A stretch of DNA of 64,000 nt from Sthenelais limicola (lineage: Eukaryota; Annelida; Polychaeta; Phyllodocida; Sigalionidae). Shown piece by piece: positions 3,421 to 37,435 of the stretch; within the stretch, counting starts at the first letter, position 1, and every line of letters begins with the position of its first letter. Location: assembly GCA_942159475.1 (NCBI GenBank), contig OW804095.1:66430773-66494772 (forward strand), read 5' to 3'. The notes under the pieces were generated by a model that had not been told where the DNA came from, searched no databases, and worked only from the letters and a program-made list of their open reading frames with translations. Both the position numbers and the translations under genes were made by a program.

Positions 3421-4091
3421 TTAATCAGGAGAAAAATCTGGGGAAGGCGACCGTGAGAAATGTTGTTGAAGATTTTGTTTGTGTTCATTATTAGAGCGAC
3501 AATGTTGTTGGTAACGGTTGGATAAAGCTTTAAGATGATGAGTCATTGTGCTCGTGTTAAGTTTACCTGTTCTTTGAGACTGGCCATATGTACTTGCTTC
3601 TCTCCAGGCCGTCGTATTCTTCTTTGGTCCACAACAGTGGAACGCTGCCAAGAATGCATGCCGGAACTTCCGGTTCATAAAACAATAAGTTATAGGATTG
3701 CAGCAGGCTGATACATATGAGAGAAGATGGATGAAATTCATGCAAACTGGGGAACACTGTCTCCTCGCGCTGTCTTTATCCAATGTATACCACGTATTCA
3801 TCACCCAAACTGGTGTCCAACACACAAAGAATTCCACAACAACTACAAACAACATCCTAATGACACGCTTCTTTGCTGCGAGGCTTTTCTCTGTGTTTGT
3901 GTGGCGAATGTTCTGGTAGCGGTTGGTATCAAATTTTCTCCTCACGCCCGTGCTTCCCCGCCTATCATCATTTTTGTTTTGTCCATTGGTTACTACCCCA
4001 TTTCCAAAGCGACCACTGCCTCCCACTTCCTCGTCCGTGTCTCCGTCATCATCATCTCTGATATTAGTGGGATTCCGGAGCTCTCGCATTT
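3421..4091 (-). CDS. CCKR: Cholecystokinin/sulfakinin-type receptor, last coding exon (ICL3, TM6, TM7, C-tail)
   Basis: This is the terminal exon of a rhodopsin-class neuropeptide GPCR; the family couples to G proteins at the plasma membrane. It opens after a TTTTAG acceptor with two bases that finish a codon from the previous exon, and ends at TAA (3423-3421). Residues 1-70 of the exon are a hydrophilic, acidic then basic third intracellular loop. AAKKRVIRML leads into TM6 (about 77-99), with CWTP in place of the usual CWxP. TM7 carries LLSYVSACCNPITY, the NPxxY motif, followed by FMNRKFRHAF and a CC pair at 152-153, a likely palmitoylation site. AKKRVIRML and the LLSY-to-FMN block are characteristic of vertebrate CCK-A/CCK-B receptors. 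The C-tail is Ser/Thr/Gln-rich and ends SPDFSPD. The family call is strong; the choice between CCK and sulfakinin ligand is inference. Confidence 0.88.
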
Positions 4092-23065: not shown

Positions 23066-23089
23066 TTTTTTTTTTTAAATATTTTTATT
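23066..23089 (-). terminator. Retrotransposon 3' end: AATAAA and poly(A) tract
   Basis: Read on the minus strand, AATAAA (23089-23084) is followed seven bases later by a run of 11 A (23076-23066). This marks the RNA 3' end copied during target-primed reverse transcription. ORF2 ends about 400 nt upstream. Confidence 0.7.
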
Positions 23090-23482: not shown

Positions 23483-26311
23483 TCAATTGTTTACGTCTAA
23501 CAGGTTTCTGTAATTGCTCATGATTGCGTATTTAAACAGCTGATGGTCGACAATTACTTTATACTCTCGGTCCAATTCATTCCAGTATCTTTTACCACTG
23601 TACACAATTGATTTCTTAAATCGTTCCGTATTGGGTCGAGATAGAATCAGATTGGGGGCGATATCATTTCGTAGTCCAAGCTCACGGATTACCATCTGTG
23701 CATCGTTGCGGTGTTTATGTACGAGTGTCAGCATATTCGCTTTCCTCCTATATTCTAAAGGTAAAATATTATATTCTTTCAATTTATTATCGACATTGGT
23801 TTGTTGACCGTGAGCGATTCTTATCGCATACCTACACGACCTGTTCAATTTGTTGACCAAGCCGATATTACATGGTCCGAAGAAGGAGCAAGCATATTCA
23901 CACAGTGGCAAGATGTACGTTTTAAATATTAGTATGCATATCTGAGGAGACATATATCTTCTCCTTCGTTGCAACTCCCCAAGTTTCCAGTACACTGTTT
24001 TCAGTGTGTTGGAAATATGTTGGTTTAAAGTTAGCTTTTCATCGATGATGCACCCTAGGTATTTGAATGTAAAGACGCGTTCAATACGTGTGCTTTTACA
24101 ATATAGTACTATGTCATTATTATTTTGGTTCCTTCCTTTCCGACCGAATAGTTGGGCTTTGGTCTTTTTATTATTTACCTGTAGTTTATTTGTCGTACAC
24201 CAACTCAGATATTTATTTATATCTTCCTGAGTTTTTGCCTTCAAACTGTTGATATTTTCATCATATGATATAAGAGCCACGTCGTCGGCATATATAACAA
24301 GTTTGCTGTGTAAATCAAGGTCAGAGATATCATTTATGAATAATACAAACATTAAAGGGCCTAAAATACTGCCTTGTGGGACGCCTGCAGCAACTGTACA
24401 ATCTTTACTTAGGCCACAATTTGATCTAATATATTGTTTCCTGTCATCTAAAAAACTCGACAGCAATCCTATTGATGACCTGTTCAAACCTAGGCTATGA
24501 AGTTTCTCTAGCAGTAGGCAGTGATTGACGGAATTAAACGCTTTGCACACGTCGAAATATACTACACTGGCCACTTGACCCAAATTTGTGGCATTATATA
24601 ACTCTGACAACAACATGTATATTGCATCGTTTGTTGATTTCTTACTACGAAAACCGTATTGATGTTTATACAGAATATTATGTGTTTCCACGTAGTCATA
24701 TAGTCTTGTATATACAATTCTCTCGAGTATTTTGCTGGTCGATGCTACAAGAGTAATGGCTCTGATGTTTTCAATACGTTTAGTATTACCATTTTTTGGA
24801 ATAAGTACTACTGGAGATCTTTTCCAAGCATGAGGGAATGTACCATTTTTAAGAATCAAATTTATGAGATTCGTGAAAAAGCCTATAGCACTGGTAATCG
24901 CCAATTTTATTGTGAAATTGTTTAGCTTTTCCATACCTGAAGACTTAGAATCTTTTAATTCCTTCACCAATCTCAAAACCTCCGATTCTTGTACATGTTG
25001 AGTAATGTCTAAATCACCAAAGGCCTTTCCTTCAAAGATGAATTTATCCACCTCGCTATTTCCTATTCTTGAAAAATAATTATTTGCGTAATCTATCGCA
25101 ACCATACCAGATAATGTTCCTGTTTCTGTTTCAAAACTTTCTAAAATGTTCTTATCTTTAGAATTCTTGTTGCTGTAAATCGCACCCATATTTTCCCAAA
25201 ATTTCCTCGGGTTACCATTATTTTCATTTACCTTATCGACTAAAAATTGTCGACGTTCTTGATCTATCAATTTTTTCACCCTTTTTCTGAGAGATTTGGC
25301 GTCTAGGTAATCACCACGTACCTTTGTGGATCTGGCCAGCAAAAATGCTTCGTCTCTTTCTTTTATCAAATTATGTGTTTCTTGAGACAGATAGGACACA
25401 TTTGGTTTTTTTCGTCTGCGAATAGGTATAAAACATTTCTTGTCGGTTCTTTCTATAGATCTGTAAAAGTCAGACCAAATGTTGTTAATCGACCTGTCTT
25501 TACATTGAATCTTTTTTGATTCCAGTGATATAATGTTCTTGAACCTAGTTACCGCTGCTGGACTTCGACATTTAGTCCATACATATTCCCTTTCACCAAG
25601 AGACACTCGTTTTTTTTGAAATATAACACCTTTCACTGGGAAGTGGTCTGATATATTAATGTTCATACTCTCGCAGGCAGCCATATCTATGTTACTAAAT
25701 ATGAGGTCTATCTGCGTCTGACTCTTATCAGTTACCCTGGTGAACGAATTATTTTGTAATCTTAAACCGGTTCTATTCATGGTATCAGATAGTACCCTCT
25801 TTTGTGGGCTCCTGCCGGCCATGTCTATGTTCATGTCCCCTAAGAATATGACTTTTAGCTTTTTTACTCTTATCATATCTAGTATTTTATTGATATGGGC
25901 CATGAAAGCATCAGGAGATCCAATCGGTGGGCGATAAGTATTCACGAGGAGGAATTTCCCATACATTCGATATTTACACATCAGTAGTTGGCATTCTATA
26001 TCCTTATTACAGCAATTTAGGTAACCAAACCGGTGTTTGTCAACAACCACGGAATTATTGTGATACACTGCAAGGCCCCCACCCCTTCTCGGGATTCCTT
26101 CGATGACTCGATCTTGTCTTACAAGATTATAATCATTATGGGCCAGATAAGAGTCTCTATCGTAATCATATAACCAGGTTTCATTGAGAGCTACTATATT
26201 TACACCCCTATCGAGTATTGATACGTGTACCTCATTAAGATGATTGTTGAGGCTTCTAACATTGAAGCTGATTATTGAGCAACCCATTTTTTTCGACATA
26301 TTCTTAGCCAT
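23483..26311 (-). CDS. Non-LTR retrotransposon ORF2: APE endonuclease and reverse transcriptase
   Basis: This 942-residue protein nicks target DNA and copies the element's RNA into it. The first ATG (26311) is chosen; the frame stays open 27 codons further upstream but without an ATG. The endonuclease (about 10-233) shows SFNVRSLNN, LNETWL (catalytic Glu), NTYRPP, FLGDMNID (GDxN, about 158), QIDLIFSN and ISDHFPV (SDH, about 221). The RT (about 485-735) shows PVVLIPK, IRAITLV, QYGFRSKKST, YFDVCKAFNSVNH (first catalytic Asp, about 587), GVPQGSILGPLMF and YADDVAL (about 674-677). A basic linker (RRRKKP) lies between the two domains, and the C-terminus has the usual YLGCIID and FKTYILPLCEYA thumb motifs. 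No RNase H domain is visible. All catalytic residues I can check are present, so it is probably enzymatically competent. Confidence 0.93.
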   Translation of the reverse strand: MAKNMSKKMGCSIISFNVRSLNNHLNEVHVSILDRGVNIVALNETWLYDYDRDSYLAHNDYNLVRQDRVIEGIPRRGGGLAVYHNNSVVVDKHRFGYLNCCNKDIECQLLMCKYRMYGKFLLVNTYRPPIGSPDAFMAHINKILDMIRVKKLKVIFLGDMNIDMAGRSPQKRVLSDTMNRTGLRLQNNSFTRVTDKSQTQIDLIFSNIDMAACESMNINISDHFPVKGVIFQKKRVSLGEREYVWTKCRSPAAVTRFKNIISLESKKIQCKDRSINNIWSDFYRSIERTDKKCFIPIRRRKKPNVSYLSQETHNLIKERDEAFLLARSTKVRGDYLDAKSLRKRVKKLIDQERRQFLVDKVNENNGNPRKFWENMGAIYSNKNSKDKNILESFETETGTLSGMVAIDYANNYFSRIGNSEVDKFIFEGKAFGDLDITQHVQESEVLRLVKELKDSKSSGMEKLNNFTIKLAITSAIGFFTNLINLILKNGTFPHAWKRSPVVLIPKNGNTKRIENIRAITLVASTSKILERIVYTRLYDYVETHNILYKHQYGFRSKKSTNDAIYMLLSELYNATNLGQVASVVYFDVCKAFNSVNHCLLLEKLHSLGLNRSSIGLLSSFLDDRKQYIRSNCGLSKDCTVAAGVPQGSILGPLMFVLFINDISDLDLHSKLVIYADDVALISYDENINSLKAKTQEDINKYLSWCTTNKLQVNNKKTKAQLFGRKGRNQNNNDIVLYCKSTRIERVFTFKYLGCIIDEKLTLNQHISNTLKTVYWKLGELQRRRRYMSPQICILIFKTYILPLCEYACSFFGPCNIGLVNKLNRSCRYAIRIAHGQQTNVDNKLKEYNILPLEYRRKANMLTLVHKHRNDAQMVIRELGLRNDIAPNLILSRPNTERFKKSIVYSGKRYWNELDREYKVIVDHQLFKYAIMSNYRNLLDVNN

Positions 26312-26606
26312 AGTCTCTAAAGAACAGGGGGATCGTTTTCCAATATGTTTCGCTATCACAAAGATTAAAAACAGCGGTGATATACAGTACAAACAATGAT
26401 TTCAATACAATTTCCCATTGGGACGACATACCTTAAGTATGTATCGGGCTGATATAGACTACCACCAGTAATTACAGTGTATATCTTCTTGCACGACTAC
26501 TTGATCGGGGATCATTAGATGCATATATTTAAAAACAGTAGGGTGAATCTAACAATCGCATGGAGACCTGTTGGAGTACTTAGCGAATAGAGCGACTATG
26601 ATTGTA

Positions 26607-28433
26607 TTATGGCATAAGGAGTTTGTCAAGCTTAGAGCTCCTGGTAGAATTGTCCTTCATAGATCTATACGATTCTTCTAGTGTGTTTCGGGTCTTTATC
26701 CTGTATCTAGGGGTTTTGGTAACCCTATCCGCAGGAGTTGATATATGTTGGTTTTCTAGTCCTTTGGCAAAGTTCTTGTCAATAGCAGTTTCATTAGGGA
26801 TAGGAGAGGGCATGTGTTTGTCTTCGTCGTCGCGGTCCATCCAGAGGTGTTCGTAATCGGGTCCATTCTGAGCGTATTGGTTCATTCCATCTCTTGCTAT
26901 TGCTATCTGGCCGGGGATCATTGTTGTCTCTGCTTCCTCCATTGGGGTGCCTGGTCTGATTAATCCTGAGTCCTTACCAACATTGATACATCTGTTGGGA
27001 GGAGGGGTGGTATTTGGTCTTTGGTACAGGAATTTGTGATGGTCAACGTGTAGATTGCGGGGGGGGATCGGTGTGTCTAGGGGATATTTCTTAAAACATT
27101 CCTCTCTGATCATTTCTAGGATGTTGCCTAGAATATTCTCCCCATCCCATGAGCCATCGTTCAGTCGTTTGCTCCCCAGAATACAACCACTTCCAAAGTG
27201 TTTGTCATGAGTAGCTTCGATCAGCTGGCATCTTCCCATTCCTATGAGCTTACATCTTAGACTGGGATTATCCATAAATTTTATCCTTACCAGTGTTTCC
27301 AAGATTCGATCGCGTTCTTTTAGCCAGTTCGGGTATTTTGGGTGTTTTACGTCCAAGATCATCTCCCCAATTCGTTTGCATTCATGTGGATCTCTAGTGG
27401 CTCTAATCCTTGCTGCTACCCTGTCTTTATCGAAGAATTCGGCTTTCTTGGCCTGATAAGCCTGCTCGACGTGACAGTAGTCGTCATCATTATACTCAAT
27501 ACTACACTTATAAAAATTGGACAAGAAGGCTTTTTCGCTCTGAAACGCATACCCGTTTTTTACCGGGATTATCTTGGTGCTGGATGGATGGATAATGTCC
27601 GGCACATATTCGAGCATGCTTTGAGAGAATATTTTGTCGTCTACAATGAGCTTATCTCCTTTTGCTTGGGCCCTATGTTCCGTGACTTCGTTGGCTCTTT
27701 TCGCCATTTGACGGATGAGGCTTCTCTTTTGTTGCATGGCTGGAGGTAGTATCTGATTTATTTTCACGAACTTTAAATAACCAAATTTATCTGGTGGAAA
27801 GTGCCTTTTGTCTTGGAATACTGATTGCTCCTTTAGTAAGAATTCCTTGTCCCCGACACTAATCAGTTTAACCACCAGTTTCGGGGGTATCTTTCCTCGC
27901 TGTTTTCCTACCCTGTATGCCTTCTCGATATTCTCATCTGTGAAGTGGGGTATTAGCAGCCGGATGATAGATACTGCTTTGTCAGTCGGATTTTCTCTTT
28001 CGTATTGGTCCAGGCCCTCAATTTCGATATAGTTTTCTTTAGCAACTGTCAAACTTTCCTCTACTTGGTTCCTCAGCGATTTTTGGTCGGTGGTGAGGTA
28101 ATTTACTTGTTTTTTCAGATCAACGATTAGGTTTTCGACTTGGACTCTCCTAGAGACCTCGGAGTCTAGATCAACTATCACGTTATTCAAAAAATGAGTG
28201 TTCGTGGCTATATTTGTCTCCAATTGACCCACCTTTTGTGTTGGTTTTTCTTTATTATCCAGGGCTGTTTTTAGAGCTTTCTGTTCGACTGTTAGTAGCC
28301 TCACTTGCTCTTTAAGTGCATCTAGTTCACCTTCACTGTGATCACCACTAATGGAATTTAGCGATAGGTTATCCCGTCTACGCTTATTCCTGGCTTTCTT
28401 TGCTGCCCTAGACATATCGAATGTTTTGTCCAT
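26607..28433 (-). CDS. Retrotransposon ORF1: coiled coil, RRM/L1-ORF1-like region and NADAR (YbiA-like) domain
   Basis: The start is the ATG at 28433; the frame begins two codons earlier with GTG. The 608-residue protein opens with a basic stretch (RAAKKARNKRRRD). A heptad-rich coiled coil follows (about 33-131), then an L1-ORF1p-like RNA-binding region (about 138-265) with ENIEKAYRVGK and PPKLVVKLISVGDKEFLL. Residues about 296-445 (27548-27099) are a NADAR/YbiA-type domain (COG3236, DUF1768): FLSNFY (302-308), HVEQAYQAKKAEFF (about 321-335), a WLKERDRILETLVRIKF helix, LIEATHDKHFGSG (about 404-416) and GENILGNILEMIREE. These align in order with the SNF, EHYFQAQKF, ALRAKF, LVEHTENDAYWG and GKNRLGYLLMELRE blocks of bacterial YbiA; the usual W of the YWG block is F here. 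The C-terminal 160 residues are proline/polar-rich and unrecognised. Bacterial NADAR proteins are N-glycosidases (riboflavin intermediates, ADP-ribosylated guanine). A role for it in the element is inference. Confidence 0.88.
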   Translation of the reverse strand: MDKTFDMSRAAKKARNKRRRDNLSLNSISGDHSEGELDALKEQVRLLTVEQKALKTALDNKEKPTQKVGQLETNIATNTHFLNNVIVDLDSEVSRRVQVENLIVDLKKQVNYLTTDQKSLRNQVEESLTVAKENYIEIEGLDQYERENPTDKAVSIIRLLIPHFTDENIEKAYRVGKQRGKIPPKLVVKLISVGDKEFLLKEQSVFQDKRHFPPDKFGYLKFVKINQILPPAMQQKRSLIRQMAKRANEVTEHRAQAKGDKLIVDDKIFSQSMLEYVPDIIHPSSTKIIPVKNGYAFQSEKAFLSNFYKCSIEYNDDDYCHVEQAYQAKKAEFFDKDRVAARIRATRDPHECKRIGEMILDVKHPKYPNWLKERDRILETLVRIKFMDNPSLRCKLIGMGRCQLIEATHDKHFGSGCILGSKRLNDGSWDGENILGNILEMIREECFKKYPLDTPIPPRNLHVDHHKFLYQRPNTTPPPNRCINVGKDSGLIRPGTPMEEAETTMIPGQIAIARDGMNQYAQNGPDYEHLWMDRDDEDKHMPSPIPNETAIDKNFAKGLENQHISTPADRVTKTPRYRIKTRNTLEESYRSMKDNSTRSSKLDKLLMP

Positions 28434-28721
28434 ACACACACGTAGTCAGTCTCTGGTATCCGTATGGGGTTGTTACTATACACAGTGCACTGGCCTTTGT
28501 TTGGGTTTACCGCCACTCGATCGAAGCTCCCAATATCGCCCTATTCAGGTGAAAGTTTTAGATAATTCGATTATTATGCCCGAATCGAATCGTCTGGATA
28601 AAAAATACGTTATCCTTGGTCCATAGGCCACGACGTAAAAGCCTATTTGGAGCAATCGGCAAGAATCTGTTCATATGCTGGTGGGATTTTGCGCTTAGCT
28701 GCACGGGGCGTCCGTACTAGT

Positions 28722-35994: not shown

Positions 35995-37435
35995 ACTACG
36001 GAAGACGAGAGTGCTCACGCATGGAAAGTGACTTTTGTGTTTTGTTTTCAAATAGAAAATCATTTTCATTTCAAAAATTATTTTGAATTTGAAAATCATT
36101 TTTTATCTCATTTAAAAACTAAAATTCCTTTTGTTTTAAAGTATGTTTCAAAAGACATAGGCGTTTTCATTTCCGTTTTGAATTTGATTTCAAGACAATC
36201 TAGATCTCGCGAGAACATTCAAGTGCGTTTTCATTTCCATCTTGAAATGTAAATGAAAATCTATGAACGAGACTTAAAACGAGATGAGATCTCACGAGAT
36301 CTCACGCACAAAATGGCGGCTCCTATGGGGCTGCCATCTTTGATTCCTTCCTCAGGTGAAGTGCAAAGTTTTAGTCAATAATGCAATAATGGTGCTACGA
36401 ATAGGGTATTTCCATCAATCATAGCACAGCACAGAGCAGCACTGCATGTGTTGTGCAGCACACAACTGTCCAGCAGCACAGTGCAGCAGAGAACAGAAAT
36501 GATATAGTCAGTTGCACATTTGGCTGACTATTTGTAGGCTGATGTGATATATTTCCTGCTTGTAAAAATATGCGAGAGTTGTTTATTTTATTGTGTATAG
36601 ATATGATCGAAAATAGAATTATAGCACAGTGCAGCACTGTGCTTTGCAGCACTTTCCAGCGCAGCACTGTGCTGTACAGCACTTTTCAGTGCAGCACAGT
36701 GCTGCGCAGCACTTTACAGCGCAGCACTGTGCTGCTCATCACTTTACAGTGCAGCACTTTACAGCGCAGCACTGTGCTGCTCAGCACTTTTCAGTGCAGC
36801 GCAGTGCTGCCCAGCAATTTCCAGCGCAGCACTGTGCTGCCCAGCACTTTCCAGCGCAGCACTGTGCTGTGCAGCACTTTCCAGCGCAGCACTGTGCTGT
36901 GCAGCACTTTCCAGCACAGCACTGTGCTGCACAGCACTTTCCAGCGCAGCACTGTACAGTGCTGCGCAGCACCTTAGAGTGCAGCACCGTGCTACACAGC
37001 ATCTTTAGCTGCACTAAACATTGCTGTACACTGCTGCAATGGACATTGAGCATTAGCAGCATTATGCCACAGGAACAGAAGTATAACCAATCCAAGACTC
37101 ATCCGAGATCATCTTGCCTAGCGCTATAGCTTCTTCGGCCATTTTGCCAGTGAGATCTCATGAGATCTCGTCTCGTTTAAAATCTCCAAATATCTCGTTT
37201 AAAATCTTTTAAATATCCAAAATGGATATCAAAACGGTAGTGACATGTGATGTTGAAACGAAAATTAAAACGATAGTGACCTGTGACTTTGAAACGAAAG
37301 TCAAAACGAAAATTGAAAGTGATTTTATTTTTTAAATGTGATGCACAATGACTTTGGAAACGAAAATGATTTTCTTTTTTAAAATTAAAACAGAATTTTA
37401 CTTTTCATCACATGAACACTCTCGTCTTCCGTAGT
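35995..37435. mobile_element. Long-TIR (foldback-type) non-autonomous DNA element
   Basis: The outer 19 bp, ACTACGGAAGACGAGAGTG (35995-36013), recur as a perfect reverse complement at 37417-37435. Similarity continues inward for about 310 bp on each side (to about 36313 and from about 37128). Both arms show strings of TTTCGTTTT/AAAACGAAA-type words and end in matching GAGATCTCA(C/T)GAGATCTCA blocks next to CAAAATGGC. No transposase is encoded. The middle (36314-37127) is filled by a 30-bp minisatellite. I could not identify a target-site duplication. Confidence 0.75.
36420..37045. repeat. Minisatellite, 30-bp period, inside the long-TIR element
   Basis: From about 36620 to 37000 the sequence repeats every 30 bp, with units built from GCAGCACTTTCCAGC followed by GCAGCACTGTGCTGT. 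A more degenerate GCAGCAC-rich part extends left to 36420. Each unit contains CAGCACTGTGCTG, a 13-nt palindrome, so single strands can form serial hairpins. Because 30 is a multiple of three, all frames show repetitive open reading frames (AQHCAVQHFP-type on the plus strand). These are by-products, not genes. Confidence 0.9.

Follow-up and report, generated by a model that had tools for sequence, protein, structure and literature searches.

The ORF1 protein of a long interspersed nuclear element (LINE)-type retrotransposon, which lacks long terminal repeats (non-LTR), carries a NADAR domain in the annelid Sthenelais limicola. The element lies on the minus strand of a 64,000-nucleotide stretch of contig OW804095.1 (hereafter the window), and both of its open reading frames (ORFs), ORF1 and ORF2, are intact. 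ORF1 (26607..28433, minus strand, as are all features of the element given below) has 608 codons counted from its first ATG and no internal stop. An earlier note on this DNA had described a NADAR domain following, in one open frame, the coiled coil and L1-like region of a retrotransposon ORF1, and this observation was confirmed; the note's interpretation found partial support. The domain retains the Glu-Lys-Glu set of characterized NADARs, and public genome and metagenome data contain 82 further proteins with this fusion. We assign a probability of about 0.5 to the reading that the ORF1 NADAR is an ADP-ribose N-glycosidase that rides on the ribonucleoprotein (RNP) of the element and clears the guanines (or 5′ ends) of its RNA or cDNA.

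The NADAR domain occupies residues 301-447 of ORF1 (27099..27539); residue numbers refer to the 610-aa reading with translation table 11, which starts at a GTG at position 28439. The NADAR profile PF08719 matched ORF1 with 91.5 bits against a curated cut-off of 35.1, and TIGR02464, the profile of the riboflavin-intermediate N-glycosidase, likewise scored above its cut-off, so the profile check bears out the domain identity first assigned from motifs. In the structure model this C-terminal domain takes the YbiA/NADAR fold, and the fold matches of the protein include an RNA-virus RNA-dependent RNA polymerase protein (rank 38). According to passages of PMC11543638, E43, K50 and E125 of the Phytophthora nicotianae NADAR coordinate ribose and phosphate, and mutants at the equivalent E. 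coli positions lose activity or rescue. By alignment, their equivalents in the window are Glu325 (27465..27467; ribose-binding E43), Lys332 (27444..27446; phosphate-binding K50) and Glu408 (27216..27218; E125, the YbiA-subfamily glutamate), the last being Glu rather than Asp or His, as in the YbiA subfamily. Other ADP-ribose contacts are partly retained in the alignment (W89=W372, R93=R376, D130=D412, W133=F415, K75=K355). Loss of the pocket residues, which the earlier note had named as a refuting outcome, did not occur, although one ADP-ribose contact, R79, is replaced.

Ahead of the NADAR domain, ORF1 is built like an L1-type ORF1p. Two helices in the structure model carry heptad patterns (helix 1, residues 33-62, 28254..28343, matched by 9 of 2000 shuffles; helix 2, residues 68-134, 28038..28238, matched by 1 of 2000), placing a predicted coiled coil in front of the RNA-binding part. 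In the fold comparison, the L1 ORF1p trimer aligns from residue 91 onward, within helix 2. An RRM-like domain (residues about 135-232, 27744..28037) and a domain like the C-terminal domain (CTD) of L1 ORF1p (residues about 233-290, 27570..27743) follow; the matches to 2ykq, 2yko and 2ykp reach residue 290 or 291, and the predicted structure has the L1-type RRM-CTD fold of type II LINE ORF1s. The Transposase_22 profile (PF02994) gave no match to ORF1 at E≤1. We therefore describe ORF1 as L1-type by predicted fold and do not class it as a Transposase_22 member. The C-terminal tail (residues 451-610, 26610..27089) is probably disordered, its predicted local distance difference test scores being mostly about 30, and tails of more than 40 residues occur in 4 of the 83 ORF1-NADAR proteins described next.

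Searches for relatives found that the fusion is widespread. A search with the whole ORF1 matched 15 proteins, of which 14 are ORF1-like and carry a NADAR, and a profile search, which scored the 7996 candidates sharing most words and whose query profile includes NADAR, returned 97 proteins at E 1e-10 or better. Among 129 proteins scanned for domains (128 and the window), 83 have a NADAR as well as an RRM-CTD resembling that of the window, with the RRM-CTD first in 83/83; the remainder comprise 24 with NADAR only, 4 with RRM-CTD only and 18 reverse transcriptases (RTs) with neither. Of the 83 proteins, 15 had served to build the RRM-CTD and NADAR profiles, leaving 68 as independent finds. The other 82 are putative LINE ORF1s judged by their architecture, as their RRM-CTD resembles the window's in the profile scan. 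Because the same architecture recurs in these relatives, the fusion is not a single-copy accident, the outcome that would have undone the earlier note's proposal. Loci encoding relatives were sought among viral contigs (with the window's ORF1 and ORF2, A2, P0045, P0105 and A4) and among genome contigs with P0010, and none was found in either. The genome-contig search with the ORF1-derived alignment A4 gave NADAR-only matches on 4 Erysipelotrichaceae/Erysipelotrichia contigs (L009-L012), which were set aside.

The catalytic positions are strongly conserved across this family. The position of Glu325 is E in 83/83 proteins, that of Lys332 is K in 77 (R in the other 6), and that of Glu408 is E in 81 and Q in 2, such that all three are retained in 81/83; W372 is kept in 83/83. 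The two proteins with Gln at the second catalytic Glu, P0064 and P0077, are sisters in the NADAR tree and are candidates for an inactive lineage, judging from their sequences.

We compared the two halves of the fusion, and their histories agree. Pairwise identities of RRM-CTD and NADAR correlate (r 0.68 over 3403 pairs; 0/999 permutations as high), and therefore both parts travelled together. Mean identity over all pairs is 0.363 for RRM-CTD and 0.359 for NADAR, and columns conserved at ≥95% number 13/155 in NADAR vs 4/141 in RRM-CTD. When the window is compared with its 82 relatives, NADAR is closer than RRM-CTD in 82/82 (means 0.311 and 0.185). That NADAR is the better conserved half across the family by pairwise identity was a candidate we dropped, as it holds for the window and not over all pairs.

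In a NADAR tree of 117 rows, the window falls within a starred branch of 7 ORF1s (97/89), and a larger starred branch (95/94) groups the ORF1 NADARs with three plasmid NADARs, the Phytophthora enzyme and the proteins P0116 and P0121; phage NADARs, E. coli YbiA and the NADARs of capping enzymes fall outside this branch. The RRM-CTD tree also stars the window's 7 together with one other row (96/90), from few columns for its rows and with the window's long branch joining another long branch; the bootstraps had not settled in either tree. Whether ORF1-NADAR fusions form a clade, as had been envisaged, received a divided answer: the best NADAR tree does not unite the 83 ORF1 NADARs, the plasmid NADARs L001-L003 lying among them with weak support, but a tree with a single branch was not rejected (approximately unbiased test, p 0.268). 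We therefore do not claim a single origin. P0116 (852 aa, on an 85-kb contig) combines NADAR with a PHD finger, a region resembling RNase H1 and a weak coiled-coil-like match, a set reminiscent of retroelement parts. In P0121 the NADAR is preceded by a weak match to SGNH/GDSL that stays under the cut-off (E 3.6e-4), and the protein is possibly an esterase-type ORF1 with NADAR.

Human L1-type ORF1p forms trimers that coat LINE RNA. If the window's ORF1p does likewise, trimerizing through its coil and coating the LINE RNA, NADAR would be kept at high local concentration on that RNA, where, like its Phytophthora and E. coli counterparts, it could hydrolyse guanine-N2-ADP-ribose. The benefit to the element would be a template that stays readable for its reverse transcriptase in a host with nucleic-acid ADP-ribosyltransferases, and the modifiers might be a guanine-modifying activity like that known from clams, or PARPs. 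Passages of PMC11543638 and PMC11125620 report that E. coli, phage and oomycete NADARs strip ADP-ribose from guanine, and a passage of PMC11209040 reports guanine-modifying ADP-ribosyltransferases in invertebrates, with activity in six clams and CARP-1 purified from one. Because known NADARs remove guanine ADP-ribose and the fusion would hold NADAR on RNA, an eraser carried on the RNP is the simplest reading.

Several observations weigh against an RNP-borne eraser. Within the ADP-ribose-binding set, R79 is replaced by Glu359 in the window, and the position of R93, Arg in the window, is Ala in 50/83 proteins. TIGR02464, the second profile to score above its cut-off, takes its name from riboflavin intermediates. 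No ADP-ribosyltransferase was seen in the element, nor did a Pfam scan of 24 window ORFs (of 225 stop-to-stop ORFs) give one. Conservation is also less one-sided than the window's own comparison indicates: NADAR is the closer part in 1555/3403 pairs overall and in 12/21 pairs within the window's branch of 7, and the 82/82 result may be partly due to an unusually fast RRM-CTD with a long branch. E. coli YbiA and phage NADARs cleave guanine-ADP-ribose in vitro, yet do not rescue from DarT1 (passage of PMC11125620), and therefore activity on model oligonucleotides does not fix the physiological substrate. As for hosts, passages of PMC4441479 report that human L1 is restricted by the zinc fingers of ZAP, which belongs to the PARP family but lacks PARP activity, and that PARP1 overexpression does not inhibit human L1; these findings therefore lend no direct support to an eraser role.

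The strongest rival, which we nevertheless regard as unlikely, places NADAR at the RNA 5′ end, where it would remove or remodel NAD- or ADP-ribose-type caps, or handle the junction of cap and spliced leader, for capping, translation or packaging. It draws on 8 of the 97 proteins from the profile search, which unite a guanylyltransferase (PF01331), a cap N7-methyltransferase (PF03291) and NADAR according to precomputed Pfam domains; the three-domain make-up was confirmed in the one rescanned (P0105), and NADAR is C-terminal in 8/8. By analogy, these fusions suggest a role for NADAR at RNA 5′ ends. The nematode trans-splicing factor SNA-3, with three NADARs, contacts the cap-binding complex (passage of PMC9303266), and TRPT1 and PARP10 can ADP-ribosylate 5′-phosphorylated RNA in vitro (passage of PMC8053099). 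However, none of the literature passages covered shows a NADAR acting on 5′ phosphate-linked ADP-ribose or an NAD cap, the known chemistry being that of N-glycosidic bonds, and the capping-enzyme NADARs form their own starred branch (with three other NADARs), separate from the ORF1 NADARs. The capping-enzyme proteins themselves (P0103, P0105, P0108, P0110, P0111, P0112, P0114 and P0117; 934-1136 aa, on contigs of 3.6-21 kb) are probably viral, a guess from their domains.

Less probable again is that NADAR is a binding module only, for ADP-ribosylated host factors or nucleic acid or for extra RNA affinity, with catalysis dispensable. The Gln at the second catalytic Glu of P0064 and P0077 and the partial retention of ADP-ribose contacts would fit such a module, but 81/83 proteins retain all three catalytic positions, including a Glu pair that a pure binder does not obviously need. 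We likewise give a low chance, somewhat below that of a pure binder, to small molecules as targets, whereby NADAR would act on riboflavin intermediates, cyclic ADP-ribose or soluble NAD-derived signals and thereby alter the metabolism or immune status of the host cell. The TIGR02464 score is in keeping with this, as is the proposal of soluble ADP-ribose derivatives as phage NADAR targets (passage of PMC9503650), whereas fusion with an RNA-binding scaffold speaks for nucleic acid as the substrate. A functionless accident or an assembly chimera, to which the single copy of the element in the window might be thought to point, is very improbable given the same domain order in 82 other proteins, two ORFs open throughout and two halves that diversified in step.

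Downstream of ORF1 on the same strand, a spacer (26312..26606) separates the ORF1 stop from the first ATG of ORF2, which encodes an endonuclease and a reverse transcriptase (23483..26311 from that first in-frame ATG; 23483-26392 in the 969-aa reading). The endonuclease domain (PF03372, residues 41-250 of the 969-aa reading, 25643..26272, E 6.2e-10) and the reverse transcriptase domain (PF00078, residues 531-783, 24044..24802, E 2.1e-31) are accompanied by the motifs GDMNID, SDHFP and YADD, and no RNase H match was found in ORF2 in the Pfam profile scan. The RT carries GVPQGSILGP (24356-24385) where human L1 has QGCPLSP, and G[VI]PQGSxLGP occurs in 14 of the 18 nearest RTs, the other 4 giving no match to the search pattern. 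We take motifs of this type to set CR1/L2/Jockey-like RTs apart from L1/Tx1-like RTs. Judged by this motif alone, ORF2 does not have the L1-group RT of the Tx1 clade, and the sequence makes it likely that the element is CR1/L2/Jockey-like and not Tx1; in overall similarity its RT scores 50.5 bits to L1 ORF2p, barely more than the 45.3 bits to R2.

On its 3′ side the element probably ends at an AATAAA with a run of 11 A, read from the sequence at 23066..23089. No target-site duplication that would fix the 5′ end was found around the element; the longest shared word has 9 bases, and random stretches share words of 9 to 14 bases with the 3′ flank (142 draws), so that 9 bases are not exceptional. 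The window holds no second copy (blastn at E 1e-3; tblastn matches elsewhere of at most 23.9 bits). Other features of the window include an exon of a rhodopsin-family G-protein-coupled receptor (3421-4089, minus strand; PF00001, E 2.6e-15), in itself a hint of an animal host, and a CAGCAC-rich tandem repeat array with units of 30 and 105 bases (36645-36962), which is spanned by a 166-aa ORF (36629-37129). For 20 further window ORFs there was no Pfam match above cut-off, and an Rfam scan of the window gave none at gathering scores.

We tentatively raise the possibility, which we think holds rather less promise than the eraser function itself, that these elements represent an old and widespread class of LINEs, spanning more than one retrotransposon clade, with an ADP-ribose eraser in the RNA-coating protein, which would imply that invertebrate hosts ADP-ribosylate guanines (or 5′ ends) of retrotransposon nucleic acid as a defence. 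If so, the conflict would mirror bacterial DarT-NADAR and viral macrodomain warfare. The retention of the catalytic positions in 81/83 proteins amounts to a natural experiment, suggesting that a selfish RNA element profits from the activity. Should that activity be guanine de-ADP-ribosylation, a host defence against retrotransposons by nucleic-acid ADP-ribosylation would be indicated. We know of no report of such a defence. A passage of PMC11125620 calls it unclear what animal NADARs do outside toxin-antitoxin systems.

Among known systems, the scaffold of the window's ORF1 resembles type II LINE ORF1s (human L1 ORF1p; several CR1 and L2 subgroups), which likewise have a coiled coil, a single RRM and a CTD. 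Passages of PMC4120745 place type II ORF1s in CR1 and L2 subgroups and consider that ORF1s were possibly transferred horizontally between lineages; NADAR is not among the five ORF1 types described there, whose add-ons are PHD, CCHC and esterase. On the enzyme side, the Phytophthora nicotianae NADAR (PDB 8bau, a guanine-ADP-ribose hydrolase) lacks a LINE-type RNA-binding scaffold, and the window does not retain its R79. NADAR antitoxins associated with DarT1 belong to the same superfamily, with chemistry assigned by homology, but have an aspartate (D171) where YbiA has its glutamate and sit beside the DarT toxin (passage of PMC11543638); the window has Glu408, and the gene next to its NADAR is no ADP-ribosyltransferase but ORF2, the endonuclease-RT. 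Positive-strand RNA viruses of invertebrates, which are selfish RNA-templated elements too, also embed NADAR alongside their replication protein, although there it sits in a polyprotein with the RNA polymerase and not in a LINE ORF1 (passage of PMC9503650).

The nearest precedents are retrotransposons. In one sentence, PMC12477816 (Genome Biol 2025) notes that several Tx1 LINE families of Crassostrea gigas from Repbase have NADAR-like domains in their ORF1, and the novelty is therefore smaller than the earlier note had hoped. Passages of that paper also report Ectocarpus Gypsy elements with NADAR in Pol and suggest processing of RNA intermediates. Among the matches listed for NADAR and retrotransposons, in a literature whose subscription papers were mostly outside coverage, nothing besides PMC12477816 appeared, and the main text of the bivalve transposon paper PMC10294476 does not mention NADAR. 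As in the window, the oyster elements join a LINE ORF1 to a YbiA-family NADAR, but they are labelled Tx1 (L1 group), unlike the window's RT by motif, in a comparison by description only. The Ectocarpus elements captured a YbiA-family NADAR as well, but are LTR elements with a Pol fusion and not a LINE ORF1. The kind has thus already been glimpsed in print, and what is new here is the ORF2 type, the breadth of the family with its catalytic conservation, and the structural model.
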